This document shows positions 21,019-47,282 of a stretch of 64,000 nucleotides of DNA, in pieces. The notes under the pieces were generated by a model. That model was not told the DNA's origin, did no database searches, and saw only the letters and a program-made list of their open reading frames with translations. Position 1 is the stretch's first letter; each line of letters begins with the position of its first letter. The position numbers and the translations under genes were made by a program. Source of the DNA: Nostoc sp. B(2019) (lineage in GTDB: Bacteria > Cyanobacteriota > Cyanobacteriia > Cyanobacteriales > Nostocaceae); assembly GCF_010091925.1 (NCBI RefSeq), contig NZ_WVID01000005.1, positions 215,628-279,627 of the forward strand. The letters are read 5' to 3'.

Positions 21019-22632
21019 ATGATTGATAATGGTCTTTTTCCTAAAACAAATATTGCTCATACACCCTTGAAATGGAAAGGGTCAGATTATCTGCTCAAGA
21101 CAGATGCAAAGCAAATTGAGCACTGTTTACACGATATAGACACACCATTCTATATATTGCACACTGGTTCTAGTATTGCGCTTGCAACAGGTGGAGAAAT
21201 CTCGCCTACAGGAAATTACAATTGCTTAGGCTTAATACCTGCTTTTAATTCTGCGTGCCTTGGTAGTGATGCTTTTAAAAAAGCTCACGGCACAAATTAT
21301 GCATACCAAGCAGGGGCTATGGCTAATGGTATTGCTTCCATTGATTTGGTAACTTCTCTAGGTAAAAAAGGATATTTAAGCTCGTTTGGCGCAGCAGGTT
21401 TACCTTTGAAGAGAGTGGAAGAAGCTATCACAACTCTCCAAGCTACTCTTCATGATGCTCCTTATGCTTTCAATCTTATTCACAGTCCTTCCGAACCCAA
21501 CTTGGAAAGAGAATGTGTGGAATTGTATTTGAAGTATGGAATAAAAACGGTAGAAGCGTCTGCTTTTATGAACTTAACGCCTAATATCGTTTATTATCGC
21601 GCTGCTGGACTCTCCCAAGGTAGTGATGGCGAGATTGTAGCTAAAAATAACATTATCGCTAAAATTTCTCGCAGAGAAGTTGCGGAAGTCTTCATGAAGC
21701 CAGCACCAGAGAAGATACTGGAAGATTTGGTATCAAAAGGTCTAATTACTACAGAGCAAAGTGCTTTGGCTCAAAAAGTTCCTGTAGCTAGTGATATCAC
21801 TGTAGAAGCCGATTCAGCGGGGCATACAGATAACAGACCACTTGTTTGTTTACTACCTTTGATTCAAGAGATTAGAAACCGCATCCAACAAGAGTATAAG
21901 TACGAAAAAAACATTAGAGTAGGAGCCGGAGGGGGAATAAGCACACCCCAAGCGGCCTTAGCTGCTTTTGCGATGGGAGCAGACTACATAGTAACTGGTT
22001 CGGTGAATCAAGCCTGTAGAGAGTCTGGAGCATCGGAAATCGTCAAAGCCGCGTTAGCCCAAGCAGACATTGTAGATTTTGCTATGGCTCCTGCCGCAGA
22101 TATGTTTGAAATGGGCGTAAAAGTACAAGTCCTCAAAAGAGGAACGCTTTTTGCTATGCGTGCCCAGAAACTTTATGAAATTTATCGGCAATATGATTCT
22201 ATCGATGAAATTCCGTTGATAGAAAGGAAAAAAATTGAAGAACAGTTGTTTCAAAAAAACTTAGATACGGTGTGGGATGAAACTGTTCAGTTTTTCCAAG
22301 AGCGTGATCCTAGTCAAATTCAGAAAGCTTTAGAAAACCCCAAGAAAAAAATGGCCCTAATTTTTAGGTGGTATTTGGGAAAATCATCTTTTTGGGCTAA
22401 AGCTGGAATGCAAGAAAGAAAAATGGATTATCAAGTATGGTGTGGCCCAGCAATGGGAGCATTCAATGAGTGGGTAAAGGGTTCTTACTTAGAAAAACCA
22501 GAAAACCGTCATGTTATTGATATTGCTGACCATTTGATGAAAGGGGCTGCTTATCTCTTCCGTATCCGTCAACTTAATAGTTTAGGAGTGAATTATGTTG
22601 ATAGTTACGGAACTTATAAAGTAACACCATAA
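21019..22632 (+). CDS. PfaD-like trans-acting enoyl reductase
   Basis: 537 residues, close to the usual PfaD/HglG length. It is an FMN-dependent TIM-barrel protein of the 2-nitropropane dioxygenase/PfaD family that reduces enoyl-ACP intermediates of PUFA-synthase-like iterative PKSs. Diagnostic stretches are AGAMANGIASIDLVTSLGK, FNLIHSPSEPNLE, the flavin-phosphate loop VGAGGGISTPQAALAAFAMG with ADYIVTGSVNQ, and FEMGVKVQVLKRGTLFAMRA. It is the first gene of the core cluster, just after the transposon graveyard. The KS-AT and KS-CLF genes encode no ER domain, so this protein is expected to supply enoyl reduction in trans. Confidence 0.9.
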   Translation: MIDNGLFPKTNIAHTPLKWKGSDYLLKTDAKQIEHCLHDIDTPFYILHTGSSIALATGGEISPTGNYNCLGLIPAFNSACLGSDAFKKAHGTNYAYQAGAMANGIASIDLVTSLGKKGYLSSFGAAGLPLKRVEEAITTLQATLHDAPYAFNLIHSPSEPNLERECVELYLKYGIKTVEASAFMNLTPNIVYYRAAGLSQGSDGEIVAKNNIIAKISRREVAEVFMKPAPEKILEDLVSKGLITTEQSALAQKVPVASDITVEADSAGHTDNRPLVCLLPLIQEIRNRIQQEYKYEKNIRVGAGGGISTPQAALAAFAMGADYIVTGSVNQACRESGASEIVKAALAQADIVDFAMAPAADMFEMGVKVQVLKRGTLFAMRAQKLYEIYRQYDSIDEIPLIERKKIEEQLFQKNLDTVWDETVQFFQERDPSQIQKALENPKKKMALIFRWYLGKSSFWAKAGMQERKMDYQVWCGPAMGAFNEWVKGSYLEKPENRHVIDIADHLMKGAAYLFRIRQLNSLGVNYVDSYGTYKVTP

Positions 22633-22790
22633 TCTTTGCTTTTTCTTGCTCTACGTAATTGGAACAACAAAGCATTAATCCAATTATCAAGGCTTGCATT
22701 TTTCTAAAAAGTCCTTGTTTTGATGGGACTTCTCTGGAAATAAATCGTTTCTAATTATTCGCTCAACTTTTAGCAGGTTAGGTATAAGCA

Positions 22791-24116
22791 ATGCCAAAAC
22801 TTAAATTTCCTCAATCTCAACAAGCAGCTAGTCAGGTAAAAAAATATTTACCTGGAGGAGTTCATTATAATTTTCGGTATGAAGGCAAAGATACCATCAT
22901 CCCTTTTAATAGAGGAAAAGGCTCAAGGGTATGGGATTTAGACAATAATGAACACCTTGATTTATTTTGTAAATTTGGTGCTTTGATTGTCGGACACCAA
23001 AATGAAGAATATAATGCAAAGTTAATTTACTACATCAATAAAGTACTTTCCGTAGACCAATGCGATTTGGAAGAACGTGTTTGTGAACGGATTATTCATC
23101 ATGTGCCTAGTGCCGAAATGGTACGTTTCGGGCTGAGTGGTACAGAAGCCGTGCAAAATGCTATTAGGCTTGCGAGAGCCTATACAGGTAAGCCCAAATT
23201 TGTCCGGTTCCAAGGGCATTATCACGGTAATGCAGACAATATTATGGGTGGTAAGCCAACATCTTCTGAGTATCCTGCTCCTGTTGAATATGAAGGAGAT
23301 TACATGGGTACTGATGGACGTGCTCCTAACATTTTGGAGGAGCAGTCTTTCCTCATCCCCTGGAATAATATCGATGCTTTAGAAAAGCTATTGCTATATC
23401 GCGGTGATGAAATTGGCGTTATTTTGATGGAGCCTATCTGTATCAATGGAGGCGGAATAGTACCCTCACCAGGATATTTAGAGAAGGTTAGAGAACTCTG
23501 CGATCAATATCACATAGCTCTTATATTTGATGAAGTGATTACTGGTTTTAGAGTCGCTTTAGGCGGGGCACAATCTCTGTTAGGTGTAACACCTGATATT
23601 ACGGTTTTTGGCAAGGCAATGGGTGGAGGTGCTCTACCAATGTCTGCCATTGTCGGCAAGAAAGAAATTATGCAACTCTATACGGATAATAAAGTTATCC
23701 ATGCCGGGACATTCAATGGTTATCCACTCGGATTAGCTGCTGTATTGGCAACTATTGAGTTGCTTGAAAATGACCCATCATGCTATGAGAGAATGGCGAA
23801 TTACCTGACGCAAATAGGTCAGTCTCTTGTGGATGCCGCAAAAAATGTCGGAATACCAATGGTAGCTCAAGGTGTACCCGGTGTTTTAGTTTTCCATTCT
23901 GAGGCAGCACCACTTACTAAAGCAGAAAGTTACAACGAAACTACCAAGCTTCGGGATATTTTGATTACACGCCTTGCTAGGAACTATGGCATCCAATTTT
24001 CCCCAGTTTCTAGGTTTTTTAGTAATCTGCTCATGGATGACTCTGATGTAACTTTCTTTAAAGAAAGGATAGGTGAAGTCATGACTGATATCGCCAGAAT
24101 TAACGAATTTTTGTAG
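22791..24116 (+). CDS. Class III (GSA-type) aminotransferase
   Basis: A 441-residue PLP enzyme of fold type I, close to glutamate-1-semialdehyde aminomutase and to the aminotransferase domains built into PKSs (McyE, iturin type). Visible residues are the SGTEAVQNAIRLARA phosphate-binding loop, GHYHGNADN, the PLP-pyridine Asp in LIFDEVITGFR and the Schiff-base Lys in FGKAMGGG. It is unlikely to be the housekeeping HemL because it is embedded in the biosynthetic cluster 158 bp after the PfaD gene. It probably aminates a beta-keto-ACP intermediate or the aldehyde made by the thioester reductase (inference). Both chemistries are known for this family. Confidence 0.87.
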   Translation: MPKLKFPQSQQAASQVKKYLPGGVHYNFRYEGKDTIIPFNRGKGSRVWDLDNNEHLDLFCKFGALIVGHQNEEYNAKLIYYINKVLSVDQCDLEERVCERIIHHVPSAEMVRFGLSGTEAVQNAIRLARAYTGKPKFVRFQGHYHGNADNIMGGKPTSSEYPAPVEYEGDYMGTDGRAPNILEEQSFLIPWNNIDALEKLLLYRGDEIGVILMEPICINGGGIVPSPGYLEKVRELCDQYHIALIFDEVITGFRVALGGAQSLLGVTPDITVFGKAMGGGALPMSAIVGKKEIMQLYTDNKVIHAGTFNGYPLGLAAVLATIELLENDPSCYERMANYLTQIGQSLVDAAKNVGIPMVAQGVPGVLVFHSEAAPLTKAESYNETTKLRDILITRLARNYGIQFSPVSRFFSNLLMDDSDVTFFKERIGEVMTDIARINEFL

Positions 24117-24436
24117 GCTTTGACAAAATTACGAAAAATTGGCAAGGTCAAAGTGATTAATGCACTTTAGGGCATAGGGTGCGGAGTGTAATAGCACGCA
24201 CAATTCCCTAACAATTTCATCAATTCAATCTTGTTTATTTGCTTCACGCACAGAGAAGTTGGAGCGGTTCCACCGCTCCGATAACTCTGGACTTAGCGGG
24301 TGGCTTGACTTGAGCAAAGTGTCCGTAGCGCAGAGAAAGAACGTAAAATTAAGACTTTTGCAAGATGGGTAACTGGTCATTGAATAAAGGGGCTTCTTGA
24401 GCGTTCTAGACAATGCATATTTTGAACTTGAGAACA

Positions 24437-25219
24437 ATGCACAGTAACTATCAAATAAAAAGTCAAGATAGAATAGCAGTCGTTACCGGGGCAGCAGGCA
24501 GATTTGGACACCAGATTATACTGCAATTGTTGGCAGCAGGATTTTATGTAGCGGCAACAGATGCTTCTGAAGAAAAGCTGGCAAGCTTGCAGACTTATCT
24601 AGGGGCTTTTGAGAGACTCGGCTTAGTTTTTATGGATGCATGTAATTCGCAAAGCATTCAGAAAGCTGGTGAGCAGATTACTAATCTATTTGGAGAGCAA
24701 ATTTCTGTTTTAGTTAACAATGCAGACATTTTAGAGCCTACTCCTATTTTGTCGTCGGAACATCACGATAAGGTCAGGGAAATTATCGATACCAATCTGA
24801 TCGGAACTTATAATTGCACCAGCTTTTTCTCTAAGTTCATGGTCAAAAGGAAAAGTGGACGCATTATTAACATTGCTTCTATTGCAGGTACTTGGGGAGC
24901 GTCTTTTGCTTCTGCTTATGCTGCTTCTAAGGCTGGGATGATTGCTGCTTCTAGATCTTGGGCCAGGGAACTAGGTTCTTATGGTGTGTGTGTAAATGCG
25001 ATCGCGCCAGGTAGCTGCCATACCAATACGCCAGAGAGTGCTGAGCAACAAAATCCTTCTGTTTCATTGAGAAAAAAGATATTGCTGGATTTTATTCCTG
25101 TTAGTCGTTTTGGCAATGCTGAAGATGTGGCTGAAGTCGTTCTATTTCTAGCCACATGTAAAACCAATTATCTCAACGGAGCGATACTTGATTTAGACGG
25201 TGGGATTAATAAGGGATAA
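24437..25219 (+). CDS. Short-chain dehydrogenase/reductase, copy 1 (altered cofactor loop)
   Basis: 260 residues from ATG 24437, which aligns with the start of the next gene; ATG 24413 would add 8 residues. An SDR of the FabG type with catalytic Ser in IASIAGTWG and YAASK. The coenzyme motif TGxxxGxG is changed (TGAAGRFG, Arg for the middle Gly), and the NNAG motif reads NNAD. Long stretches are identical at the DNA level to the downstream SDR, so the pair is a tandem duplication. The altered glycine and NNAG positions suggest reduced or changed activity. It may be decaying or may work in a heterodimer with copy 2. Confidence 0.82.
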   Translation: MHSNYQIKSQDRIAVVTGAAGRFGHQIILQLLAAGFYVAATDASEEKLASLQTYLGAFERLGLVFMDACNSQSIQKAGEQITNLFGEQISVLVNNADILEPTPILSSEHHDKVREIIDTNLIGTYNCTSFFSKFMVKRKSGRIINIASIAGTWGASFASAYAASKAGMIAASRSWARELGSYGVCVNAIAPGSCHTNTPESAEQQNPSVSLRKKILLDFIPVSRFGNAEDVAEVVLFLATCKTNYLNGAILDLDGGINKG

Positions 25220-25347: not shown

Positions 25348-26154
25348 ATGGACAGTAACTATCAAATGATTAATCAAGATAGAATAGCAGTCGTCACCGG
25401 GGCAGCCGGGGGATTTGGACAGCAAATTGTTCTGCAATTGTTGGCAGCAGGATTTTATGTGGCAGCAACAGATATTTTTGAAGACAAGTTAGAAAGCTTG
25501 CAGACTTATGTAGGATCTTCGGAGAAACTTGGCTTATTTGGTATGGATATATGTAATTTGCAAAGCATTCAAAAAGCTGGTGAGCAAATTACTAATTTAT
25601 TTGGAGATAAGATTTTCGTTCTGGTTAATAATGCAGGCATTTTTGGGCGTACTCCAGTTTTGTTGACAGAATATCATGAGAAAGCGCGGCAAATAATCGA
25701 TACCAATCTGATAGGAACTTACAATTGCACCAGCTTTTTCTCTAAGTTCATGGTTAAAAGGAAAAGTGGACGTGTTATTAATATTTCTTCTATGGCGGGT
25801 ACTTGGGGAGCGTCCTTTGCTTCTGCTTATTCTGCTTCCAAGGCTGGGATGATTGCTGCTTCTAAATCTTGGGCCAGAGAACTAGGTACTTATGGCGTGT
25901 GTGTGAATGCGATCGCGCCAGGTATCTTCCAAACCAATATGTTAGAACGCGCCGAGGAAGACGAACGTTCTGTTTCTATGAAAAAAAAGATAGTGCTGGA
26001 TTATATTCCTGCTGGTCGCTTTGGCAATTCTGAAGATGTGGCTGAAGTCGTTCTATTTTTAGCCACATGTAAAACTGATTATCTCAACGGAGCAATATTC
26101 GAGTTAGACGGTGGTCTGAACATCGGCACTTTAGAAAGTATACATTTGAGTTAA
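25348..26154 (+). CDS. Short-chain dehydrogenase/reductase, copy 2
   Basis: 268 residues with an intact classical SDR fold: TGAAGGFG nucleotide loop, NNAG, catalytic Ser in SSMAGTWG and YSASK, and NAIAPG. It most resembles 3-oxoacyl-ACP/alcohol dehydrogenases. It is a tandem paralogue of the preceding gene, and the divergence is concentrated in the middle and at the C-terminus. In hgl-type pathways an extra SDR (HetN) is associated with the lipid synthase. Here it could reduce a keto group of the chain or the aldehyde released by the thioester reductase. The thioester reductase gene starts 9 bp downstream, so the two are translationally close. Confidence 0.87.
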   Translation: MDSNYQMINQDRIAVVTGAAGGFGQQIVLQLLAAGFYVAATDIFEDKLESLQTYVGSSEKLGLFGMDICNLQSIQKAGEQITNLFGDKIFVLVNNAGIFGRTPVLLTEYHEKARQIIDTNLIGTYNCTSFFSKFMVKRKSGRVINISSMAGTWGASFASAYSASKAGMIAASKSWARELGTYGVCVNAIAPGIFQTNMLERAEEDERSVSMKKKIVLDYIPAGRFGNSEDVAEVVLFLATCKTDYLNGAIFELDGGLNIGTLESIHLS

Positions 26155-26163
26155 ACATTGATT

Positions 26164-27360
26164 ATGAATCAAGTAGATTGCAAAAATATTTTCATCACAG
26201 GTGTAACAGGGGTAGTAGGGGGAAGACTCCTATATGAAATTCTTGCCTCTACACAAGCAAATGTATATTGCTTAGTCAGAGCAGATAATGTCCAAAAAGC
26301 TAAACAAAGAATTGTTGATATTCTTGCAGTTTACGACCCACAACATAAAATATTTTCCCAGTTTGAATCAAGAACTAATGTTATAATTGGGGATATTACC
26401 AAGAAACACTTTGGGTTAACAACTGAAGATTATTCTCACCTTGTCCAGCAGATTGATCAAGTTTTTCACGTAGCTGCAAACGTTAACATGGTAGCTAGTT
26501 TTGAAAAATTAGCTGAGGTCAATCTTAGAGGCACTTCAGAAGTTATTGAATTTTGCTTAGCTGGTCAAATTCCCATGCTCCATACATCTAGCTATAGTGT
26601 TATAGGTAGTAAAACTATGGAGCCAGGTTTAGTATTTAAAGAAAGCGATCTTGATATTGGGCAGACTTTTGATAACCAAAATTATGAACACACAAAACTG
26701 CAAGCAGAGCAGCGAGTTCATGAGGCTGGAAATCGAGGACTAAAATGGGTAATTGTGAGACTTGGTGATATTCTCGGTGACAGTAAAACTGGTTGCTATC
26801 CGCTTACAGGTACAACGATTAAAGGCATATATTATGGTATTATTAAATCCATTGTTGACACAGGGCTATTCTTTTTCTTAAAAGATTATTTTTACATTAC
26901 GCCAGTTGATTATGCGGCAGAATCTTCGCTTCATTTAGCGCTTAATCCAGAGGCTTACGGTAAAACTTTTCACATTATTAATCCAGACTGTAAATCATTT
27001 TACGATTTTGTTAATCTGATCGTGGATGTTGGCTACAGAGTCAAAATACTTCCCTATGAAAAATATATATCTCTGTTTAGAGATAATGCAGTCTTCAAAG
27101 AAGGGAAGATTTACAGTTCTTCTTTTGTTAACCTGTTGCTATTTTCGGATCTGATCACAGGTTCAGAATTATCTCCAGATTTGATAGATACTTCAGTGAT
27201 CATTGATACGTCAAATGCCGAAGAATTTCTTTCAAAGGCTAATATTTACTGCCACAAGGTTGATATTGATTTACTCTCAACTTACTTGAAATATTGTGTA
27301 GAAAAAGGCTTTATAGCCTCTCCGGCTAACCAGTCTCCCTTAGCGACTATCAAATATTAA
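26164..27360 (+). CDS. Thioester reductase (Lys2/HglB-type, free-standing)
   Basis: 398 residues from ATG 26164 (TTG 26158 is the alternative). An extended-SDR reductase domain with the NAD(P) loop ITGVTGVVGGRLL, FHVAANVNMV, the TSSYSVIG Ser/Thr region and catalytic Tyr/Lys in YEHTKLQAEQ. This is the domain that reductively releases acyl-ACP as aldehyde or alcohol in NRPS/PKS, HglB/HetM and the zeamine/fabclavine polyamine pathways. The family often carries a fused ACP; this one does not. With no thioesterase in the cluster, it is the best candidate for chain release. Confidence 0.86.
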   Translation: MNQVDCKNIFITGVTGVVGGRLLYEILASTQANVYCLVRADNVQKAKQRIVDILAVYDPQHKIFSQFESRTNVIIGDITKKHFGLTTEDYSHLVQQIDQVFHVAANVNMVASFEKLAEVNLRGTSEVIEFCLAGQIPMLHTSSYSVIGSKTMEPGLVFKESDLDIGQTFDNQNYEHTKLQAEQRVHEAGNRGLKWVIVRLGDILGDSKTGCYPLTGTTIKGIYYGIIKSIVDTGLFFFLKDYFYITPVDYAAESSLHLALNPEAYGKTFHIINPDCKSFYDFVNLIVDVGYRVKILPYEKYISLFRDNAVFKEGKIYSSSFVNLLLFSDLITGSELSPDLIDTSVIIDTSNAEEFLSKANIYCHKVDIDLLSTYLKYCVEKGFIASPANQSPLATIKY

Positions 27361-27472: not shown

Positions 27473-28609
27473 ATGACAAACAATTTGAGTACTTTGGATA
27501 CAGCTACAACTAATACAACATCTCCTGTATGTTCTTACAATGAATGGGATCCGCTCGAAGAAGTCATCGTCGGCATTGTCGATGGGGCGATGGTTCCATC
27601 CTGGCATACCATCTATCGGGTAACAATACCTGGTGGTCAGGATAAAGAAGTGAATGAAATGAGCAAGCAGATAGAGCAATATCGGCTTCCTTATCCAAAG
27701 AGGATGATTGAGGCTGCTACTAAGAACCTCAAAGAATTCGTCCATATTCTCGAATCTGAGGGAGTTGTAGTACGTCGTCCTGATGTTGTCAACCATTCTG
27801 CATCCTTTAACACACCTGCTTGGAAGATACTTAATGGCTTCTGTTCTGCAAATCCTCGTGACGTATTTATAGTTATTGGGAATGAGATTATTGAGGCTCC
27901 TATGGCCGATAGGGGTCGTTATTTTGAAACTTGGGGCTATCGTTCTCTGCTCAAAGAGTACTTTAAGGGAGGAGCTAAGTGGACTGCGGTTCCTAGACCA
28001 CAACTACTTGATGAACTCTATGATCAAGATTACAAGTTTCCGGCTCCTGGCGAGAAGATGCGCTATGTAATCAACGAGTTTGAGCCTACCTTTGATGCAG
28101 CGGACTTTGTGCGCTTTGGTCGGGATATTGTTGTACAGAAGAGTCATGTTACCAATAGCTTTGGTATTGCTTGGTTGCAACGTCACATAGGTGATGACTA
28201 TCGCATACATGTGGTAGATTCCCTTTGTCCACAAGCATTACACATCGATACGACCTTGGTTCCCCTCGCTCCAGGGAAGGTATTAGTGAATCCGGTTAAC
28301 TTAGATGTTAATAAACTTCCTGACTTCTTAAAATCTTGGGATATATTGATTGCACCTGAACCTAATAGAACTCCCAAGACACTTTATGGAACAAATGTAA
28401 TCAGCCATTGGGTAAACATGAATGTACTGAGTATAGACGAGGAGAGAGTCGTCGTTGAAAAATCTCAGGAGTACATGATTAAAGCACTAAAAGACTGGGG
28501 ATTTAAACCCATCGTATGTGAGTTTGAAGATTATTATCCATTCTTAGGTTCTTTCCATTGTTCAACACTTGATGTTCGTAGGCGCGGTGTACTCAAGTCT
28601 TATGCTTAA
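27473..28609 (+). CDS. Glycine-amidinotransferase-like enzyme 1
   Basis: 378 residues with a GAGG ribosome binding site. A member of the AGAT family (arginine:glycine amidinotransferase, also StrB, CyrA and SxtG), which moves the amidino group of arginine to an amine through a Cys-amidino intermediate. It shows NEWDPLEEVIVG at the N-terminus, the Asp motif FDAADFVRFGRDI, the His motif HIDTTLVPLAPGKV and the nucleophile Cys363 in FHCSTLDVRRRG. The catalytic set therefore looks complete. It follows the thioester reductase by 112 bp and precedes the KS-AT gene. The acceptor is unknown: either a small starter amine, as in cylindrospermopsin synthesis, or an amine on the finished chain. Confidence 0.9.
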   Translation: MTNNLSTLDTATTNTTSPVCSYNEWDPLEEVIVGIVDGAMVPSWHTIYRVTIPGGQDKEVNEMSKQIEQYRLPYPKRMIEAATKNLKEFVHILESEGVVVRRPDVVNHSASFNTPAWKILNGFCSANPRDVFIVIGNEIIEAPMADRGRYFETWGYRSLLKEYFKGGAKWTAVPRPQLLDELYDQDYKFPAPGEKMRYVINEFEPTFDAADFVRFGRDIVVQKSHVTNSFGIAWLQRHIGDDYRIHVVDSLCPQALHIDTTLVPLAPGKVLVNPVNLDVNKLPDFLKSWDILIAPEPNRTPKTLYGTNVISHWVNMNVLSIDEERVVVEKSQEYMIKALKDWGFKPIVCEFEDYYPFLGSFHCSTLDVRRRGVLKSYA

Positions 28610-31829: not shown

Positions 31830-31861
31830 GTGTGAGAATCAAAATAAATCAGGAGAAAATC

Positions 31862-35451: not shown

Positions 35452-35457
35452 GGTTCA

Positions 35458-38400
35458 ATGAATGAGATTGCCATTGTTGGAATTGGTTGCTTATTTCCCG
35501 GAGCAGAAAGCCCTGAAGAGTTCTGGCAGATGTTAATGAGTGGCAATGATGTCACTTCTGAAGTAACTGCCGAAGACATGGGTAGAGATCCATCAATATA
35601 CCACAGTCAAAAACGGGGAATACCAGACAAGATTAGCTACACGAAAAACGGTTATATTCGGGATTTTAACTTTGACCCTTATGGTTATAAAGTTCATCCC
35701 GAAAAGCTAATCGCCTTAGATAGGATATTTCACTGGTCTTTATATGCAGCAAGAGAAGCTCTAAAAGACAGTGGTTATCTTAATGATCAAGAGGTATTAA
35801 ACAAAAGTGGACTGATTCTAGGCAATCTCTCTTTTGCGACAGAGCACTCTAGCAAGCTTTTTTCGTCAATGCACTTAAAGACTTTAGAGTACTTTGTTAA
35901 AGAGCTTCTCAACTATCAAGATTTTAGTTTTAATGACCCAACATCGGGACTGAATATTTCTCTCGATAATGCTATAACTGCTAGCTTACCAGCTAGTATT
36001 GTTTGCAGCGGTTTGGGACTGGGTGGAATTCGTTATGCAATTGATTCTGCTTGTTCCAGTTCATTATATGTCATGGAGCTAGCTTCTTATTATCTGAATA
36101 CTGGTCAGGTAGATATGATGCTTGCTGGCGCAGTTTGCGGTTCAGAACGCCTGAATATTATTCACGGATTTAATGTGCTGAATGCTTTTCCAGACCAAGG
36201 AAATAGCGCTCCTTTCGATCAATCATCCGAAGGTATAAAAATCGGTGAAGGAGTAGGCATGTTTGTCTTAAAGCGGCTTGCGGATGCCGAGAAAAATGGC
36301 GATCGCATATATGCTGTAATTGAAAATATCGGTCTATCCAACGATGGTGGCGGAAAACATATTCTGAGTCCATCGAAGAAAGGACAACATCTGGCGTTGA
36401 AACGAGCTTATCAGGGGTCAGAACCAGTAGATTATATAGAATGCCATGCAACTGGAACTTCTTTAGGTGATCAGACAGAACTCAATTCCATAGAAGAATT
36501 CTTTGCAACCAAGCATAAAATACCTTTGCTGGGAGCCAATAAAGCTCATACAGGTCACATGCTGACAGCTTCAGCCATGGCCAGCATGATTAAAGTCATC
36601 TGGGCAATGAAAGAAGGGGTTATCCCTGCTACCATTGGCGTTGAGAATGCGATCGCCACGCAAAATGGGGTAATAACCTCTGCAAGTATCGTCTGTGAGC
36701 ATACTCCCTGGCCGCAGACAAATAAACCTAAAAGAGCCGGGATAAATGCATTTGGTTTCGGCGGTACAAATGCTCATTTAATTCTGAGAGAATATAGCCC
36801 CACTTCCACTCAATCAACCTCACTTGTACTTAAGCCAAAACAGAGCAAACCAAGTATTCCAGCTATTGTTGGTATGCACATACATATTGGCGCTGTCGAA
36901 GGACTTGAGGCTTTTGCAAAGACACTTTGCGAGAGTCGGGAAGTAATGGAATCCTTACCGCCTGAACGCTGGTCAGGAGCCGAAGAGACGCTGACTGAAG
37001 CTCCACCCAAAGCAGCCTATCTGGATAAATTTGATCTTGATTGTATTGCTTTCAAAATGCCTCCTAAAGAAGCGGGATCTGTCTTATTTGATCATCTGTT
37101 CATGATGAAAGTTGCTGATACAGCTCTGCGTGATGCTGGTTTCACCCGACATCAAGATTTTAGCAATACAGCTGTCATTATTGCTACAGAAATGAATCTG
37201 ACAGTTCACCGGAATATCACCAGGCTCAATATGCCTTGGCATCTTCGGGAATGTTTCCAAAAATTCAATATTCAATTAACAGATGTTCAGGTAAATAAAC
37301 TGGAATCTGTCTTGAAAGATAGTATGTCACCATGCCTTTATGTAGAGGGAGTCACGGGAGGAATAGGCAATATAGTAGCTAGTCGGATTGCGGCTCTCTG
37401 GGATTTTACAGGGCCAGCTTTCACAGTATCAGCCCAAGAAAGTTCTGTTTATAAAGCAATTGAAATAGCCAAGTTTTTACTAGACTTCGGCACAGTAGAT
37501 GCTGTGGTAGTGGGAGCCATCGATCAAGCAGCAAGTTGGGAAAACGTAGAATGGCGAAAACAACTTAACCAGCATAATTCTCAATTTACATTTGGGGAAG
37601 GTGCAGGTGCGATCGTGCTCAAGCGGAAAGAAGATGCACAAAAGTCTCAAAATAAGATTTATGCCACGATAGAATCCCTAGCAATTATTCAAGAAAATGG
37701 AAATGAAGTTGTATCTGACTGCGTGTGGCAAGCAACACGAAAGTCTTTAGCAATAGCCGAAGTTAACCCTAACGAAGTGGGTTATATAGAATTAAATCAA
37801 ACTGGAATATTTGCCCAAGATAAGAACGAAAGAGTAGGTTTGAATACACTGTATTCTCTTGAACACACAAATGTAGGTTCTGTTAAAGAGAATGTTGGTA
37901 ATACCTTTGTTCTATCAGGAATGGCAAGCATTATCAAAACATCTTTGTGCCTCTATCATCGCTTTATCCCAAGCATTTCTCCGCAGCAATCTGTCCAATC
38001 ATGGCAGTTATCCAGTCAACAAAAAAAGCGATTTGGGGCTGTTAATATGATGAGTAATGATTACTCCTATGCCCATCTAGTTTTGGGTGAAGGAGATTAT
38101 CAAGAAATACAGCAAGAGCCTCAAGTTGATCATCAAGCAATAAGTAAAAAAGGGGTGATAAAAACCCTGTTAAACGGTAGTGCCAGAATGAGAGATGTTA
38201 TTCTGAGTGACGATAATATCAAACAATTTAGCACTGTAAAAATTCCTAAACTTGTAAAACTTACACCAGAACGATCTTTTTCAGAAAATTATTCGATAGG
38301 CATGCAAAATACTATGCGCGATAACGAAGCGCTTCTGCGTTCGCGGAGAAGCGCAGATCGCAAACAAAGCATTCTAGAAAAACAGTACTTATGGAATGCA

Positions 38401-39759: not shown

Positions 39760-39814
39760 AAACGTTGTCAGCAAAGATTATCAAGCAAAGTAAAAATTTT
39801 TGGAGCAGATAGTT

Positions 39815-40975
39815 ATGGAAGTCAGCAGTATCACAACAAATAGAGCCATTGAAAATAAAAGCTACGAAGAAGAATTTCAAAGCACAAATACAGATAGCTT
39901 AGTTGTCAACTCATATAATGAATGGGATCCATTAGAAGAAATTGTTGTTGGTAGATTAGAAGGTGCTATTCATCCACCTAAACATATATCTTTATTAGGA
40001 GGAATCCCTAAGAAACTTTATAATGTTCTTTCCTTGGTAGGTGGAAGTAAAGTTTCACAAAGATGGGGTATTGCACCAGCACAAAAAGAATTAGATGAGT
40101 TTATTCATATCCTCGAATCAGAAGGAGTTCAGGTTAGACGCCCTAGTTTTACCGACTATAGTCGGACTTTTTCTACTCCTAACTGGAAATCTAAAGGGAA
40201 CTGCTCAGCTTGCCCACGAGACTGTTTTTTGGTCATCGGAAATGAAATTATTGAAGCACCTATGTCCTGGAGATGCCGTTATTTTGAACGTCATGCTTAT
40301 TACTCTTTATTTAAGGAATATTTTGAGCAAGGCGCAAGATGGACTTCTGCTCCTAGACCGATGCTACTAGATTCTCTATATGACAAAAACTATACTGTCC
40401 CTAAAGATGGAGAATCTATGCGCTATGTTATTAACGAATCTGAAGTTGTTTTTGACGCTGCCGATTTTGTCCGCTGTGGCAGAGATATTTTCGTAACTAA
40501 AAGTAATGTAACTAACGAAGCTGGAATAAACTGGTTACAACGTCATTTAGGAAATGACTTTCGTGTTCATACTATTGAGACACGCTCGAAACAACCTATG
40601 CATATTGACACTACATTTGTGCCTCTTGCACCAGGAAAAGTAATGATTAACCCAGAGTATATTGACGTTAAAAAACTGCCATCAATTTTAAAATCTTGGG
40701 ACATACTAGTTGCACCCAAACCAGTCATTATCAAAGGAGGCTTATTCAGTGAAACAGCTGCTCTGTGTAGTATGTGGTTAAGCATGAATGTCTTGGTTCT
40801 AGATGAAGAACGAGTAATATGTGAAAAATCCCAAGAACCAACAATCCAAGCCTTGAAAGATTGGGGATTTAAACCAATACCCTGCAATTTTTTACACTTC
40901 AATCCCTTTGGAGGTGCATTTCATTGTGCAACTTTAGACATTAGGCGTCGCGGCACATTACAATCCTACTTTTAG
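39815..40975 (+). CDS. Glycine-amidinotransferase-like enzyme 2
   Basis: 386 residues from ATG 39815, preceded by GGAG; the longer frame from TTG 39800 is unlikely. A second AGAT-family enzyme with NEWDPLEEIVVG, FDAADFVRCGRDIF, HIDTTFVPLAPGKV and nucleophile Cys371 in FHCATLDIRRRG, so all catalytic positions look present. It is paralogous to the first amidinotransferase but clearly diverged in the acceptor-facing N-terminal third (HPPKHISLLGGIPKKLYN replaces VPSWHTIYRVTIPGGQ). The two enzymes therefore probably use different acceptors. It follows the PfaC-like gene by 55 bp. Confidence 0.9.
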   Translation: MEVSSITTNRAIENKSYEEEFQSTNTDSLVVNSYNEWDPLEEIVVGRLEGAIHPPKHISLLGGIPKKLYNVLSLVGGSKVSQRWGIAPAQKELDEFIHILESEGVQVRRPSFTDYSRTFSTPNWKSKGNCSACPRDCFLVIGNEIIEAPMSWRCRYFERHAYYSLFKEYFEQGARWTSAPRPMLLDSLYDKNYTVPKDGESMRYVINESEVVFDAADFVRCGRDIFVTKSNVTNEAGINWLQRHLGNDFRVHTIETRSKQPMHIDTTFVPLAPGKVMINPEYIDVKKLPSILKSWDILVAPKPVIIKGGLFSETAALCSMWLSMNVLVLDEERVICEKSQEPTIQALKDWGFKPIPCNFLHFNPFGGAFHCATLDIRRRGTLQSYF

Positions 40976-41138: not shown

Positions 41139-41669
41139 ATGAACAACTCTCTTTTATTAAATATTAGCGAGCCTCTAACAGATAAGCAGAGTAATAAAAA
41201 TCCATGCTTTGCAACAGCATCACCAGAAGTTTGGGACTTTCGCATTGATTGTTATAGATATCGGATTTGTAAGCAATGGCTGCAAGCTCGCAACGGCTTT
41301 CCTTTAAATAAGGAAGATATTCAACGCTACCAGCGTATTTTAATGATTTTGAAAGATTTAGCTAAGCTCATGGAAGAAATTAAAACAATAACTCAATCTA
41401 ACCAGTTGAAGAAGGTAAAAGTTTTTGAAAAAGTCCAAAATATTGTTGTAGAAAAGCTGGGAATTGAGCCAGAAAAAGTCACTCCAATCGCAAGTTTTAC
41501 CAGAGATTTGGGAGCGGATTCTTTAGATACGTTAGAACTAATAGTTGCTTTAGAGGAAACATTCAATATTGAAATCTCTAATCAAGCGACTACAAAACTT
41601 GTGACGATACAACACACTATCGATTATATTAGTCAACAACTTGAGGTTGACGTAGAGTTAGCTAATTGA
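41139..41669 (+). CDS. Acyl carrier protein with unusual N-terminal helical domain
   Basis: 176 residues. The C-terminal ~85 residues are a type II ACP with Ser128 in DLGADSLDTLELIVALEETF, a different subtype from the LGIDSIK ACP upstream. The N-terminal ~90 residues (EVWDFRIDCYRYRICKQWLQ, DIQRYQRILMILKDL, AKLMEEI) resemble, from memory, the small C-terminal domain of type ISP restriction-modification/DNA methylase proteins (pattern VWNFYIGGYQVCxKWL, DIxHYQxI). This is a very unusual partner for an ACP. It may be a co-opted protein-docking domain. The protein could carry the starter unit or the chain during amination or release. Confidence 0.8.
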   Translation: MNNSLLLNISEPLTDKQSNKNPCFATASPEVWDFRIDCYRYRICKQWLQARNGFPLNKEDIQRYQRILMILKDLAKLMEEIKTITQSNQLKKVKVFEKVQNIVVEKLGIEPEKVTPIASFTRDLGADSLDTLELIVALEETFNIEISNQATTKLVTIQHTIDYISQQLEVDVELAN

Positions 41670-41715: not shown

Positions 41716-42486
41716 ATGACCACTTTAACTAGCAATGTTGTGATGCGACCCTATGTTTCTTATTGGGGTATGCACAAGTCGGCCCGGATTTTAGATTTAA
41801 TTACATCACTTTATTTTCCGCTCTATGAGCTTTCGTATAAAGATTTTTTTGCTTATTATCCAGTTCTAGGCTTTGTGGAAGCTTTAGTGTATGAAGTTGA
41901 TGAGGCGGTAGAAGCTCTTCAGGAAAAAGAATTATTTTCTGAAGTCAAAAACTCCTGGAATCAAAAGCATAAAATCATCATTGATGTACTTAAAACAAGA
42001 AACTTGTATCATCCGTTAATTGAACAAGAATTAGAAAATTTAGGAAAATACTTTGAATTAGAAAGTCAGTTATTATCTCAGAAAGACGTAACTTATGAAG
42101 ATATTATCAAAGCTACTGAGCTACGCACTTCTGATATACGTGCTCTGCACGGAATTTTAGTACAAGTAGCTAAAAAGACTTATGATCAAAAAACCTTTGA
42201 TGTTATGTGGCCTTTAGAGGTACTTATTGATATTTACGATGATATTACTGATTATAAAGATGATGTAGATAAAAACCACTACAACACCTACCGCATGTTT
42301 GTTAAGTTCTATGGAAAGAAAGCACCCGATTATCTAAAAAAAGAGTTAGCTCGATACGAGTCTCTATTTGTCAAGAGACTAGATAGTCTACCAAGAAAAG
42401 AGCAAAAAAGATTTATAAAACTTGTATCTGAATTGGAGAAAGACAATTCTGATAAGACTATTCCTCAACCAATCCTGGAATGGTAA
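41716..42486 (+). CDS. Orphan all-helical protein with Asp-rich motif
   Basis: 256 residues with an AGAGG ribosome binding site, 46 bp after the ACP gene. I do not recognise the family with certainty. The protein appears almost entirely helical, without signal or membrane segments. Near residue 172 it has DIYDDITDYKDDVDKNHYNTY, reminiscent of metal-diphosphate-binding Asp motifs in class I isoprenoid synthases; a class I terpenoid-synthase-like fold is a guess. The C-terminus is rich in Lys/Glu. Its position inside the operon makes a biosynthetic role likely. Confidence 0.7.
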   Translation: MTTLTSNVVMRPYVSYWGMHKSARILDLITSLYFPLYELSYKDFFAYYPVLGFVEALVYEVDEAVEALQEKELFSEVKNSWNQKHKIIIDVLKTRNLYHPLIEQELENLGKYFELESQLLSQKDVTYEDIIKATELRTSDIRALHGILVQVAKKTYDQKTFDVMWPLEVLIDIYDDITDYKDDVDKNHYNTYRMFVKFYGKKAPDYLKKELARYESLFVKRLDSLPRKEQKRFIKLVSELEKDNSDKTIPQPILEW

Positions 42487-42507
42487 GGTAATCTGTCGTG
42501 GGCTATT

Positions 42508-42643: not shown

Positions 42644-42655
42644 ATGGAGTAACTA

Positions 42656-44023
42656 ATGATGATTGATCAAGTTTGGGAAAATTCAACTATGGAAGCCATT
42701 GGATATGGTATTGACAATGGCAATATAGATCCACGCGAATTAGTTGAGTATTTTTTAACTAAAATTGATCAAGAAACAGGGAAGGAAAAAATATTTATAG
42801 AGGTTTTTGAACAACAAGCCAAAAATCAAGCAGAAGCCGCATATAAAAGGGCGACTACTAACACACGGCTTTCACTTTATGATGGTATTCCCCTCGTATG
42901 GAAAGACAATTTTGATATCCAAGGTAAACCGACAAGTGCAGGGTTAAAGGTTTTATTGGATAGAGTTGCTCAAAAAGATGCAGTAGCTTACAAAACATCT
43001 GTTGATGCTGGCTTTATTTGCCTTGGTAAAACCAATATGACAGAATTGGCTTTTTCGGGTCTAGGGATTAATCCTACATTCGGGACACCAATAAATCCTT
43101 TTAGTTCTGAGCAAGCAAGAGTTCCCGGTGGTTCTTCGTCAGGTTCAGCTATTGCTGTGGCAAAAGGTTTGTGTTGCGCTGGTATGGGAACTGACACGGG
43201 TGGCTCAATCCGAACACCCGCTGCTTGGAATAATTTAGTTGGTTTAAAAACAACTGCGGGGCTAATTTCAACAGAAGGTGTTATTCCTCTAAGTCAAACA
43301 TTAGATACAGTTGGTTTTATTACTCGTTGCGTTGAAGATGCAGCTACCCTTTACCATGTAATTGCTCAGACTAATAAGATTGATGTTTCGGATATTGGAT
43401 ATAAAGGTTTAAGTTTATTAGTATGTACAAATATTGTTTGGGACGATGCTGATTCTGAAGTTGCGGCTATTTTAGATGCTTCTATAGAAAATATTGCAGC
43501 ACAAGGAGCAATTATTAAAAGGAGCAATATTCCAGAGTTTGAACAAGCACTAAAACTTATTAATACAAAAGGTAATATTGTTAACTATGAGGCAAGTAAA
43601 AATTGGCTAGAATTTTTAGAATCTCATCCTAACTCTATTTCACAAGATATACTAGATAGATTTTATGTAGGAGCAAAAATTCAGGATAGTGATGCTCAAA
43701 AAGTGTATCAGGGGTTGAAAGACCTCAAAAAGCAGTATTTGCAAAGAACGAATAATTATACTGCTGTCATAATGCCAACTGTGGCAAATGTACCACCCAT
43801 TATCAATGATTTAGAACAAAATAGTCAAAAGTACGCTGCAGAGAATCTCTTGTCATTACGAAACACGCGTTTAGCAAATATGCTTGGACTGTGTGCGATT
43901 TCTCTACCTGTGGGATTCACTTCTTCAGGGTTGCCAGTCAGCCTCATGTTGCTAGGAGCACCGTTCTCTGAAGTACTACTTTTACGCCTAGCTTTAGCAC
44001 TCGAAAAGGTATTTTCAAAATAA
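42656..44023 (+). CDS. Amidase signature family hydrolase
   Basis: 455 residues. Amidase-signature enzymes cleave amides or transfer ammonia using a Ser-cisSer-Lys triad. Lys is in PLVWKDNFDIQGKPTSAG, the cis-Ser in GGSSSGSAIAVAKG and the nucleophile region in DTGGSIRTPAAWNNLVGLK. The length fits a stand-alone amidase rather than a GatA, and no gatB/gatC lie nearby. In the cluster it could remove an acyl protecting group, hydrolyse an amide of the product or act in self-resistance. The MITE-like element separates it from the upstream operon, so it may use its own promoter. Confidence 0.88.
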   Translation: MMIDQVWENSTMEAIGYGIDNGNIDPRELVEYFLTKIDQETGKEKIFIEVFEQQAKNQAEAAYKRATTNTRLSLYDGIPLVWKDNFDIQGKPTSAGLKVLLDRVAQKDAVAYKTSVDAGFICLGKTNMTELAFSGLGINPTFGTPINPFSSEQARVPGGSSSGSAIAVAKGLCCAGMGTDTGGSIRTPAAWNNLVGLKTTAGLISTEGVIPLSQTLDTVGFITRCVEDAATLYHVIAQTNKIDVSDIGYKGLSLLVCTNIVWDDADSEVAAILDASIENIAAQGAIIKRSNIPEFEQALKLINTKGNIVNYEASKNWLEFLESHPNSISQDILDRFYVGAKIQDSDAQKVYQGLKDLKKQYLQRTNNYTAVIMPTVANVPPIINDLEQNSQKYAAENLLSLRNTRLANMLGLCAISLPVGFTSSGLPVSLMLLGAPFSEVLLLRLALALEKVFSK

Positions 44024-44132
44024 CCCCTCTAGGACTTACGCATTGTACAAATGGATATCATCTGCACTAACAAAAATATATCGTCTCACGTTTTTTCCAA
44101 TCATCCTTTGATAAGTTTGGTTATGAGGTAGC

Positions 44133-45740
44133 ATGGTGAGTTGCAAACAGATTGTCTGGTTAAAGTTTTTAGTCATCGTCCTATTGTTACTGGGTGTGTT
44201 TTTTCGCTTCGTCAATCTTGACCGAAAAATCTACTGGTTTGATGAGACTTTTACTTCATTACGGATTTCTGGTTACACACAACAGGAAGCAGTAAGGCAA
44301 GTCTGCGATGGAAACGAAATTGGTCTTGCAGATTTACAGAAATATCAGCTTCCCACTCTTGGAAGAACTTCAATAGATACTATTAAATCTTTGGCAGTGG
44401 AAGACGCACAACATCCACCGCTATACTTTCTGATGGCGCGGTTTTGGGTGCAATGGTTTGGCAGTTCAGTCGTGGTAACGAGAAGTTTGTCTGCTTTAAT
44501 TAGCTTGTTAGCGTTCCCTTGTATCTATTGGTTATGCCTGGAATTATTTAAGTCATCTTTGATGGGATGGGTAGCAATTGCACTGTTGGCTGTGTTGCCA
44601 TTCCATGTACTATACGCACAAGAAGCGCGGCAGTATAGCTTGTGGACTGTAACAATTTTGCTATCAAGCGCAACACTGCTACGAGCAATGCGACTAAAAA
44701 CAAAGTTTAGCTGGGGAATATACGCGGCTACTGTAGCATTGGGGCTATATACATTTCTGTTTTCTGGGTTTGTGGCAATTGCTCATGGTATCTATGTAGT
44801 TGCAACTGAAAGCTTCCGATTAAGCAAGACCGTTACTGCCTATTTACTTGCGTCTCTAATAGGGCTTTTAGCTTTTATGCCCTGGTTGTTGGTTGTTATT
44901 ATTCAGTTAGCCCAAGTTCAAAAGACAACGAACTGGACATCTGACACTAAGATATCTCTTTTAGAATTAATTGCAGCGTGGGCTATTAACATTAGCTATT
45001 TTTTCGTTGATTTTAACTACGATTTTGATCGAACTTTTGATAACACTATATTGGAATACATGCAGCTATGTTTGATTCCTTTTATCTTAGTTTTGGTAGG
45101 ATATTCAATTTATTTTCTCTATCGCAAAGCTTCAAAGCGGGTTTGGCTGTTTGTCTCAATATTAATTGTGATTCCAGCGCTACCCCTAGTAATACCTGAT
45201 CTAATTTGGGGAGGGATTCGATCAATACAACCTCGGTATCTAATCCCTTCCTATTTGGGTATTCAGTTAGCTGTTAGTTACCTTCTGACCACTCAAATTA
45301 CCTCAACCTTTGTTAATATCTGGCAACAGAAGCTTTGGCAGTTTATCAAGGTTGCGTTGATCTCAGTTGGAATCTTGTCCTGTGCAATCAGTTCTCAAGC
45401 AGATACCTGGCGGAATAAGTACCTTAATATCTATACTCCCCAAGTGGTTCAGATTATCAACAAAGCTACTCACCCACTTTTGATTACTTCCTGTCAGCTA
45501 AATGGTATAGGTGATGAACTATCTCTCAGCCATCTGCTTGCTCCAAAGGTACGGCTTCAGTTGGTGAATGAGCTAAATGTGCCTCAAATTTCTAATAGTT
45601 TCAGCGATGTATTTTTATATCTTCCTAACCACAACCTTCCTTTAGAATTATTACGAGAGAAGCTTGAGAAAGGGCAGAAATATAAAATAGAGGATATTTA
45701 CCCCGACAAGCTCCAGCTTTGGAAAATAGTCAAACTATAG
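44133..45740 (+). CDS. GT39/ArnT-like membrane glycosyltransferase
   Basis: A 535-residue polytopic membrane protein with about 11-12 hydrophobic helices. The N-terminal loop (IYWFDETFTSLRISGY) holds the acidic DE motif of the GT-C fold, ArnT/PMT/dolichyl-phosphate-mannose mannosyltransferase type, followed by the extracytoplasmic QHPPLYFLMARFWVQWFG stretch. A second signature, LPFHVLYAQEARQYSLW, is usual for this group. Such enzymes transfer a sugar from a polyprenyl-phosphate donor outside the cytoplasmic membrane. If part of the cluster, it would glycosylate the product during or after export. It is preceded by GAGG and starts 109 bp after the amidase. Confidence 0.83.
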   Translation: MVSCKQIVWLKFLVIVLLLLGVFFRFVNLDRKIYWFDETFTSLRISGYTQQEAVRQVCDGNEIGLADLQKYQLPTLGRTSIDTIKSLAVEDAQHPPLYFLMARFWVQWFGSSVVVTRSLSALISLLAFPCIYWLCLELFKSSLMGWVAIALLAVLPFHVLYAQEARQYSLWTVTILLSSATLLRAMRLKTKFSWGIYAATVALGLYTFLFSGFVAIAHGIYVVATESFRLSKTVTAYLLASLIGLLAFMPWLLVVIIQLAQVQKTTNWTSDTKISLLELIAAWAINISYFFVDFNYDFDRTFDNTILEYMQLCLIPFILVLVGYSIYFLYRKASKRVWLFVSILIVIPALPLVIPDLIWGGIRSIQPRYLIPSYLGIQLAVSYLLTTQITSTFVNIWQQKLWQFIKVALISVGILSCAISSQADTWRNKYLNIYTPQVVQIINKATHPLLITSCQLNGIGDELSLSHLLAPKVRLQLVNELNVPQISNSFSDVFLYLPNHNLPLELLREKLEKGQKYKIEDIYPDKLQLWKIVKL

Positions 45741-45965
45741 ACTAAATCTTTATCGAAAGTAAAGAGTTAAAGCTAATCTATGTAAGCTTTATATAAGTTA
45801 TTCGATTAACTTTGCAAGAGCTAGTTATGGGGTTGACAAATAAGCGAGAATGCAAACTGAATTAGCGTTATTGCTCTCAAATTTTGCTTGAAAATTATTC
45901 AGGTAAATTGTCAGCACCTCTAAATTTTTTTCACTTTAGAAACAATAAGCGAACTGTCAGTATTT

Positions 45966-47282
45966 ATGGAGCGTATAGTGCAAGAAAATAAGTCTATATT
46001 GTTTGCTTTATATCCTGAATGGGGTGGGTTCATGCCGATGATGGCATTGGCGAAAGCTTTTTCCAGACGCGGATGGGGCGTGCTGTTCGTTCTCCCACCA
46101 GAAGGAGATGAAAAACTCTCCCTTCACAGCCAGCAGGTAGAACATTACAAGAAGTATATAGAAGAACAAGGGTTTCAATATAAGCTTCTAAGGCCATTTC
46201 CCAAGCGGTTCGGAGGATTGCTTGCACAGACCCGCTGTGAAACTGAGATTTTGGCGAATATACTTGAGGACACTATCAAGATTATCAAAGAGTCCAATGT
46301 AGGTCTTGTGCTAATTGATTCAATTGTTTCATTTGTTGCTATTGCAGCTAGAGAATCTGGGGTTCCCTATGTTGGGGTTGGTACGGCATTTGCTGGATTT
46401 ATGAATTCAAGAATTCCGCCTTCAGACTCATCGTTTATTCCAGGTCGCAACTCATGGTCACCATTGATAACTATGTTGGACTGGATGTTATTAGCTTTTG
46501 TGGTGAGATTGTTTACAATATTTCGTCCAAAATACTTCCTCAGAAATTACTTTGGGATAGGAGCCTTCGTGAGGGGTCGTGCGCGTGAGACGGGATTAAA
46601 AGTAGGTTTTTCGGATTACGGCCCGATGTTCAAATCTCCCTTACACTACTTGATGCCAAAAAGACTAGACTTTGAACCTCGTCCTGGAGCCGAGTATCTT
46701 GGGTGTGTTGTGGATCTCTCACGTGCAGATGAGGATTTTAGGGTGGATAAGCTCAGTGGCACTAAACCGCTGATCTACTGCTCGCTGGGTACACGCAGTT
46801 GGGAATATCCTGCCAGCAAGCGCTTCTTCCGAGTTGCGCTTAAGACGTTCCAGCAACGACAAGACTATGAGTTCGTACTCAATATCGGAAACGCTTGCGA
46901 AGTCGAAGATCTTGGGGAGATTCCAGATAATGTGTATGCATGTAAGTGGGTTCCGCAAATGGCGGTTCTGCGGAAAAGTTCAATGATGATCACCAATGGA
47001 GGGATGAATACGATCAAGGAGTGTATCTGTCTTGGTGTCCCGATGATAGTTCTCCCCGCTAGAAACGATCAACCGGGAAACGCAGCGAGGGTAGTCTATC
47101 ATGGGTTGGGTGTACGGGGAGATCTTAGATGGATCGAGCATCAGGAATTGTCCAAACTCATCAATAAGATTTCCAGCGACAACACATATGTTAAGAACAT
47201 TGAGCAAATGCGAAAGGAATTCATGCGCCTGGATAAGTTTGAGACTGGAATTGATTTACTTGAAAGTTATATAGCAGCATAA
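45966..47282 (+). CDS. UDP-sugar glycosyltransferase (UGT/MGT-like), second
   Basis: 438 residues of GT-B fold. N-terminus LFALYPEWGGFMPMMALAKAF, middle VGLVLIDSIVSFVAIAARES, C-terminal donor site WVPQMAVLRKSSMMITNGGM followed by NTIKECICLGVPMIVLPARNDQPGNAARVVYHGLG. This matches zeaxanthin/macrolide/sterol-type glucosyltransferases. It resembles the glycosyltransferase between devC and devA in overall type, but the sequences are clearly different. It closes the run of plus-strand cluster genes, and a strong terminator follows. The acceptor is probably a hydroxyl of the cluster product. Confidence 0.82.
   Translation: MERIVQENKSILFALYPEWGGFMPMMALAKAFSRRGWGVLFVLPPEGDEKLSLHSQQVEHYKKYIEEQGFQYKLLRPFPKRFGGLLAQTRCETEILANILEDTIKIIKESNVGLVLIDSIVSFVAIAARESGVPYVGVGTAFAGFMNSRIPPSDSSFIPGRNSWSPLITMLDWMLLAFVVRLFTIFRPKYFLRNYFGIGAFVRGRARETGLKVGFSDYGPMFKSPLHYLMPKRLDFEPRPGAEYLGCVVDLSRADEDFRVDKLSGTKPLIYCSLGTRSWEYPASKRFFRVALKTFQQRQDYEFVLNIGNACEVEDLGEIPDNVYACKWVPQMAVLRKSSMMITNGGMNTIKECICLGVPMIVLPARNDQPGNAARVVYHGLGVRGDLRWIEHQELSKLINKISSDNTYVKNIEQMRKEFMRLDKFETGIDLLESYIAA

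Follow-up and report, generated by a model that had tools for sequence, protein, structure and literature searches.

What does a polyunsaturated fatty acid (PUFA)-type synthase make when its genes stand in one run with two amidinotransferase genes? The run in question occupies positions 21019-47282, on the plus strand, of a 64-kb stretch of DNA from Nostoc sp. B(2019), the whole of which is called the window here, and its open reading frames (ORFs) start and stop as annotated. The gene families and linkage reported for this run by a first-pass annotation were borne out gene by gene through ORFs, family profiles (including a Pfam scan of 40 window proteins) and structure matches. The cluster probably makes a cationic lipid of a kind not yet described, and the product that we somewhat favour is an exported guanidino-lipid, derived from a long-chain amine, with at least two amidinations. 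From gene content, catalytic motifs, selection, co-inheritance and reductase ancestry, as described below, we infer every reaction, the number and place of the amines, and this product.

The run opens with a PfaD enoyl reductase (ER; 21019-22632; TIGR02814 671 bits against a cut-off of 449) and a GSA-type class III aminotransferase (AMT; 22791-24116; PF00202), followed by two short-chain dehydrogenases/reductases (SDRs) resembling 3-oxoacyl reductases (24413-25219 and 25348-26154; both PF00106) and a stand-alone thioester reductase (TR; 26158-27360), which matched NAD_binding_4 above its cut-off and TIGR01746 slightly under (202 bits versus 213). Beyond the first amidinotransferase gene, AGAT1 (27473-28609), lie a ketosynthase-acyltransferase (KS-AT; 28881-31829; TIGR02813 1108 bits versus 1010), a protein with a single acyl carrier protein domain (ACP; 31832-33016; one PP-binding domain, PfaA positions 1026-1295) and a ketoreductase-dehydratase (KR-DH; 33037-35451; KR and PS-DH, PfaA positions 1760-2563), which correspond to the N-terminal, middle and C-terminal parts of a PfaA-like protein. 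A PfaC-like protein with KS, chain length factor (CLF) and FabA-type DH, recognized by its domains and motifs (35458-39759), the second amidinotransferase, AGAT2 (39800-40975), and a free-standing AcpP-like ACP with an N-terminal extension (41139-41669; TIGR00517 93 bits versus 70) complete the series. KS, AT, TR, AMT and both ACPs carry the motifs expected of them, and at the position where a KS has Cys the CLF has Gln.

The closest parallel of this synthase appears to be the polyamine synthase of the zeamine and fabclavine pathways, as judged by gene order, domain layout and TR phylogeny; zeamine-type products are antibiotics. According to the published descriptions, the fabclavine genes of Xenorhabdus encode polyketide synthase (PKS) parts (FclC and FclD), an ER joined to an aminotransferase (FclE), a 3-oxoacyl-ACP reductase (FclF) and a TR (FclG), and the zeamine (zmn) polyamine arm of Serratia plymuthica/Dickeya consists of Zmn10 with a single ACP, Zmn11 with two KS domains and a FabA-like DH, Zmn12 with an ER and a GSA-type aminotransferase, the ketoreductase Zmn13 and the TR Zmn14, with HlyD/ABC genes present and PfaB not among the genes described. 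The window order PfaD-AMT-SDR-TR is that of FclE(ER-AMT)-FclF-FclG and of Zmn12-13-14 with the fusions undone, the AMT being the counterpart of the AMT half of Zmn12/FclE, the second SDR holding the Zmn13/FclF-like position and the TR being Zmn14/FclG-like. The PfaA-type layout of KS-AT-single ACP-KR is present, spread over three genes, as is the PfaC-type layout of KS-CLF-FabA DH, and PfaB was not among the families listed as matches (the best 25 out of 28 in one case and 25 out of 27 in the other). The window shares with the zeamine arm a PfaA-like protein with one ACP, a PfaC-like KS-CLF-FabA DH, an ER plus an AMT, an SDR, a TR, the absence of PfaB and HlyD/ABC export genes. With FclC-FclG it shares the enzyme set and the E-F-G order, and PKS-type and FabA-type DHs occur together in the window as they do in the X. 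bovienii fabclavine synthase.

There are differences as well. Compared with zeamine, the AMT of the window is unfused from the ER, both functions being there in separate adjacent genes, PfaA is split in three, the non-ribosomal peptide synthetase (NRPS)/PKS arm is lacking (neither a condensation nor an adenylation domain was found in the 40 scanned window proteins), two amidinotransferases are added, and an amidase-signature hydrolase (42656-44023; PF01425 and motifs) stands where zeamine has a nitrilase-type enzyme. Compared with fabclavine, the window is without the NRPS part, its genes are split, and the amidinotransferases are again an addition.

With the window TR as query, a protein search listed 40 matches, most of them without a name, and the named non-cyanobacterial ones, at 42-44% identity, were from Xenorhabdus, Paludibacterium paludis, Massilia, Janthinobacterium fluminis and Chitinivorax tropicus. 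Paludibacterium and Chitinivorax carry zeamine-type clusters according to PMC13291983. In a tree of 25 rows, 17 of the 40 listed matches, including those from Xenorhabdus, Paludibacterium and Chitinivorax, fell with the window TR on one side of a branch with 100/100 support, and the TR of a heterocyst glycolipid (Hgl)-type locus in the same genome fell on the other side together with six plasmid TRs, five of which are on NRPS/adenylation proteins. The window TR is thus predicted to be a stand-alone TR of the Zmn14/FclG lineage by its grouping with the Xenorhabdus, Paludibacterium and Chitinivorax sequences, the zmn14 and fclG records themselves lying outside the tree.

The first-pass annotation had also named heterocyst glycolipid synthesis as a parallel, and this one fared less well than zeamine and fabclavine. 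An Hgl cluster shares with the window a PUFA-type synthase, a PfaD and a TR, and DevBCA-type exporters are part of the Hgl system as well. Together with DevBCA genes and glycosyltransferases nearby, these features could suggest that the product is a variant heterocyst glycolipid, that is an envelope lipid, with the amidinotransferases as bystanders. The genome has two further PfaD genes, however, one of which lies in a separate locus encoding KR-DH, KS-CLF with a PfaB-type domain (156 bits against a cut-off of 144), PfaD and ACP-TR, which is taken to be Hgl-type by its layout, not by a named record. The window genes are 30-55% identical to those of this locus, with the TR at 30%, and a tree constrained to join the window TR, along with six near rows, to the Hgl-type TR was rejected (approximately unbiased test, p-AU 5e-8). 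In the window KS-CLF protein a FabA-type DH is present and PfaB is not among the matches listed, in the Hgl-type protein it is the other way round, and neither AMT nor AGAT had a match in the 40 kb examined around the Hgl-type locus. Since the TR is moreover found in just 8 of 217 genomes of the family, and the amidinotransferases are co-inherited and constrained where glycosyltransferases are not in all relatives, the glycolipid explanation is extremely improbable and already largely refuted. The third PfaD locus of this genome (G000:C33, L060) is cut by a contig end; its PfaD is 80% identical to that of the genome G760, discussed below, and its ABC exporter is 49% identical to that at 15066-16679 of the window.

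Pfa-like genes have also been described in cyanobacteria as the families CF-1 to CF-3 (PMC4247773) and as clade II hybrids (PMC13291983). The clade II hybrids are without CLF and have PKS-NRPS parts, unlike the window. The main text of PMC13291983 contains neither of the terms "amidino" and "guanidin", and "amidino" is likewise missing from the main text of PMC4247773.

What sets the cluster apart is its pair of amidinotransferases. Neither had a Pfam match, and both matched SxtG, human AGAT, HsvA and StrB1-type structures along almost the whole of their length (AGAT1, SxtG 8e-164 and human AGAT 2e-86; AGAT2, SxtG 4e-134 and human AGAT 6e-95), with the Asp, His and Cys catalytic motifs kept in each. 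None of the 15 AGAT1 and AGAT2 rows from clusters was among the rows that failed the motif patterns. AGAT1 and AGAT2 therefore belong to the AGAT-family amidinotransferases, with the transfer of an amidino group from arginine as their predicted activity. They share the family and its Asp-His-Cys motifs with the enzymes of the saxitoxin, creatine and streptomycin pathways, and differ from these in being linked to a PUFA-type synthase. That StrB1, an inosamine-phosphate amidinotransferase, is of the same family and that glycosyltransferases are present could suggest that the target of the amidinotransferases and the AMT is a sugar or small head group on the lipid, by analogy with aminocyclitol pathways, and not the acyl chain. 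For both AGATs, however, StrB1 was the weakest of seven PDB matches (234 bits, versus 549 and 451 for SxtG), the PMT_2 and UDPGT glycosyltransferases are missing from some relatives that keep the AGATs, and no second aminotransferase was found among the 40 scanned window proteins, making this explanation very unlikely.

The cluster appears to be rare, yet conserved, in heterocyst-forming cyanobacteria. In 388 genomes of the order, AGAT-family genes were found in 48 with AGAT2 as query and AMT in three (E<=1e-95), the same three that were found with the AGAT pair beside the synthase; the gene context was examined for 12 of the 45 further AGAT-bearing genomes. The eight genomes with the TR, including the one described here, were compared: its congeners Komarekiella atlantica, K. 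delphini-convector, Nostoc sp. MG11 and aff. Roholtiella LEGE 12411, together with Calothrix FI2-JRJ7 and two genomes designated G796 and G760. In all eight, the AMT either adjoins the TR or is separated from it by one or two SDR genes, and the contig of the TR also carries an AGAT2 orthologue. The SDR next to the AMT is a single copy in Calothrix and G796, and none is at the AMT-TR position in G760. The co-conservation of amidinotransferases and synthase that the first-pass annotation had proposed to check was found, with both AGATs, in seven of the eight clusters, always with AGAT1 between TR and KS-AT and AGAT2 after KS-CLF-DH, and in the eighth AGAT2 was kept beside a different synthase.

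Selection on these genes points in the same direction. By Nei-Gojobori estimates of the ratio of non-synonymous to synonymous substitution rates (dN/dS), made against the two Komarekiella genomes and Roholtiella, every gene compared with an orthologue was below 0.3, with values of 0.035-0.083 for the AMT and 0.053-0.105 for both AGATs across the three comparisons, and ACPa (0.22-0.29) among the least constrained. Against Calothrix, dS was about 0.8-1.8, which is near saturation, so those ratios are rough. A search of Roholtiella placed one stop within the AGAT2 alignment, near the first residues, and the open frame begins just after it.

The eighth cluster, in G760, combines the same end-modifying enzymes with another synthase. 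Its AMT (80%), TR-ACP fusion (63%), AGAT2 (79%) and Dev genes (44-66%) are identical to those of the window to the extents given, and its synthase and PfaD are nearer to the Hgl-type and C33 proteins of Nostoc sp. B(2019) (51-80%) than to those of the window (38-54%). A search of G760 with AGAT1 at E<=1e-40 returned the AGAT2 copy as its only match, and AGAT1 goes with the window-type synthase. That AMT, TR and AGAT2 remain together despite the other synthase would fit consecutive action on the end of the chain, and this single case suggests that AMT-TR-AGAT2 may constitute an aldehyde-amine-guanidine module. Genes for Rieske-type oxygenases lie at L086:11149-14122 in G760, with a carbamoyltransferase gene nearby, and a Rieske-type oxygenase gene is in the Roholtiella cluster (L044:15850-16893). 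Such genes are thus in the clusters of two relatives, and tailoring genes vary.

The two AGATs, the sole AGAT matches in the genome of Nostoc sp. B(2019) at E<=1e-40, fell into separate supported parts of a tree of 44 rows (99/93 and 99/94), and the pair is therefore not a recent duplication. AGAT2 of all eight clusters formed a single group (100/100), and AGAT1 of seven clusters formed a 12-row group (99/100) with five proteins of 1132-1168 aa from five genomes (L046-L050), in which an adenylation domain and a carrier are fused to an AGAT1-like amidinotransferase. These fused AGATs are 76-77% identical to AGAT1 and were present in 5 of the 388 genomes; their layout was taken from a Pfam scan of L046, and all five share the N-terminal halves and the adenylation-domain motif. 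Large ORFs follow their genes, of which the one scanned (L048) is an NRPS. The fused AGATs are apparently on-line guanidine-forming modules, with an amine acceptor that is probably carrier-bound, and as these are the nearest relatives of AGAT1 outside the clusters, carrier-bound substrates are suggested for AGAT1 as well. In G796, a genome with five AGAT-family matches, two other amidinotransferases, 60% and 55% identical to AGAT1, stand in tandem away from the cluster (C120:64568-66814).

Taken together, a route can be proposed in which the PUFA-type iterative synthase, laid out as for zeamine and fabclavine, would build a long acyl chain from malonyl units. In the chemistry proposed for zeamine, some beta-keto groups are transaminated, release by the TR is reductive, and the aldehyde is transaminated in its turn. 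By analogy, the AMT may exchange some beta-keto groups for amines, and the gene content and the ancestry of the TR suggest that the TR would release the chain as an aldehyde, which the AMT would turn into a terminal amine. AGAT2 would then transfer an amidino group from arginine to this terminal amine, and AGAT1, of the other AGAT branch and tied to the window-type synthase, would amidinate another amine, perhaps while the intermediate is still bound to a carrier. The product would be exported by DevBCA, with glycosylation possible in some species. The thioester to aldehyde to amine to guanidine route put forward in the first-pass annotation gains in plausibility from these comparisons. A more far-reaching form, offered tentatively, is that polyguanidine lipids are a new class of natural products in which several amines along one chain are made into guanidines by two position-specific amidinotransferases, one working on carrier-bound intermediates and the other on the released terminal amine, with AMT-TR-AGAT2 as a portable guanidine-capping module, as in G760. 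The G760 case and the fused AGATs would support such a two-site model.

The same observations could also be accommodated if the AMT acted on the released aldehyde only, with one AGAT making a guanidino starter, from a small amino acid for instance, to prime the synthase and the other capping the terminal amine, giving a bola-type bis-guanidine without internal amines. The placement of the AGATs in different parts of the tree, the retention of AGAT2 alone in G760, the extra AcpP-like ACP, which could hold a starter, and the position of the adenylation-carrier-AGAT relatives of AGAT1 ahead of NRPS-like genes, probably at the start of assembly, all agree with such a product. The scan of 40 window proteins, however, showed neither an adenylating nor a CoA-ligase domain, and the layout resembles that of synthases that aminate internally, so that a bola-type product seems rather unlikely.

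Several points weigh against the favoured guanidino-lipid and the kinship on which it draws. AGATs of known pathways act on small amines and small metabolites, which makes a guanidino starter possible. The kinship with zeamine and fabclavine is drawn from TR phylogeny and layout; within that layout the AMT is separate from the ER gene, and the NRPS/PKS half of zeamine is absent. The 12-row group divides into three lines of unsettled order among AGAT1 rows and fused AGATs, and AGAT1 may thus be of more than one lineage across the clusters. AGAT2 of G760 is about 23 kb from the TR, five of the eight cluster genomes are of one genus, and G796 has a number of split or short ORFs (KS-AT as two ORFs; short PfaD, AMT and ABC ORFs), so this cluster may be decayed or badly assembled. 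Protein collections contain further relatives of AMT and TR, some cyanobacterial by name, and clusters without AGATs may therefore exist. As for export, DevC-like matches number 10 in each of MG11, K. atlantica and K. delphini-convector, and 8-10 in each of the congeners and Calothrix, making the nearby Dev set weak evidence.

This Dev set lies upstream at 8963-14871, on the plus strand, and comprises a DevB-family membrane fusion protein (8963-10153; TIGR02971 258 bits versus a cut-off of 129), the permease DevC (11565-12785; TIGR01185 347 bits versus 290) and the ATPase DevA (14167-14871; TIGR02982 359 bits versus 296), all above curated cut-offs and probably serving export. Interspersed among them are a fatty-acid-hydroxylase family protein (10462-11364; PF04116; OlsE-like 77 bits, far under the cut-off of 475) and a GT28-type glycosyltransferase (GT28a; 12838-14127, its start set at 12838 by alignment to relatives; PF03033/PF06722). 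DevC orthologues are 92-95% identical in MG11, K. atlantica and K. delphini-convector, the three congeners searched, and in MG11 the gene is on the contig of the PfaD, about 20 kb off with other genes between. A cyclic-peptide-type ABC exporter (15066-16679, plus strand; TIGR01194 486 bits versus 286) may be a second exporter, as may the ABC exporter at 47664-49475 on the minus strand (PF00664/PF00005), of which a 67% homologue is inside the Calothrix cluster.

Hydroxylation and glycosylation, which the first-pass annotation had put into its route, appear less central. The fatty-acid hydroxylase is 95% identical in K. atlantica and Roholtiella and was not found in the examined stretches of Calothrix, G796 and G760, and the GT28-type gene is 92% identical in K. 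atlantica and 68% in Calothrix FI2-JRJ7 and was not found in the Roholtiella stretches, the matching stretch not being covered for MG11 and K. delphini-convector. Near the end of the run, a PMT_2/GT39-like membrane glycosyltransferase (44133-45740; PF13231) and a GT1/UDPGT glycosyltransferase (45966-47282; PF00201), also accessory, were seen in four of the genus's five genomes, Nostoc sp. B(2019) included, and in no other relative's examined stretches. The amidase is in six of six genomes and gave no match in G796 or G760. As glycosyltransferase, hydroxylase and amidase genes were each undetected in one relative or another, neither hydroxylation nor glycosylation belongs to the core, and glycosylation is a late and variable step, if any.

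A helical protein of 256 aa (41716-42486), missing from the first-pass list and without a Pfam match, has a predicted fold like that of class I terpene synthases and prenyltransferases. Before the PfaD, 1.7 kb (19316-21018) are without listed ORFs of at least 70 aa, a region occupied in Nostoc MG11 and K. delphini-convector by an extra ABC/HlyD gene set. The cluster is flanked by a histidine kinase and two LuxR-type response regulators (16719-17909 and 49682-51482). Each of the four congeners showed the LuxR-type regulators, and two of them also the kinase; two-component regulation is thus possible.

In the open-licence literature, with most subscription-journal papers, preprints and MIBiG lying outside the scope, no description of such a cluster was found. 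A PUFA-type polyamine synthase is already known, and its union with two amidinotransferases appears to be new. If the proposed pathway is true, it would add guanidine lipids to the products of secondary-lipid synthases, which are known to include PUFAs, heterocyst glycolipids and zeamine-type polyamines, and would provide a set of enzymes that could make alkylguanidines from acyl thioesters. G760, with its natural change of synthase, opens the end-capping idea to a direct test, and the AGAT1/AGAT2 pair poses a clean question of site selectivity. Cationic amphiphiles are usually membrane-active, and an antimicrobial or defensive role for the product would therefore be likely.

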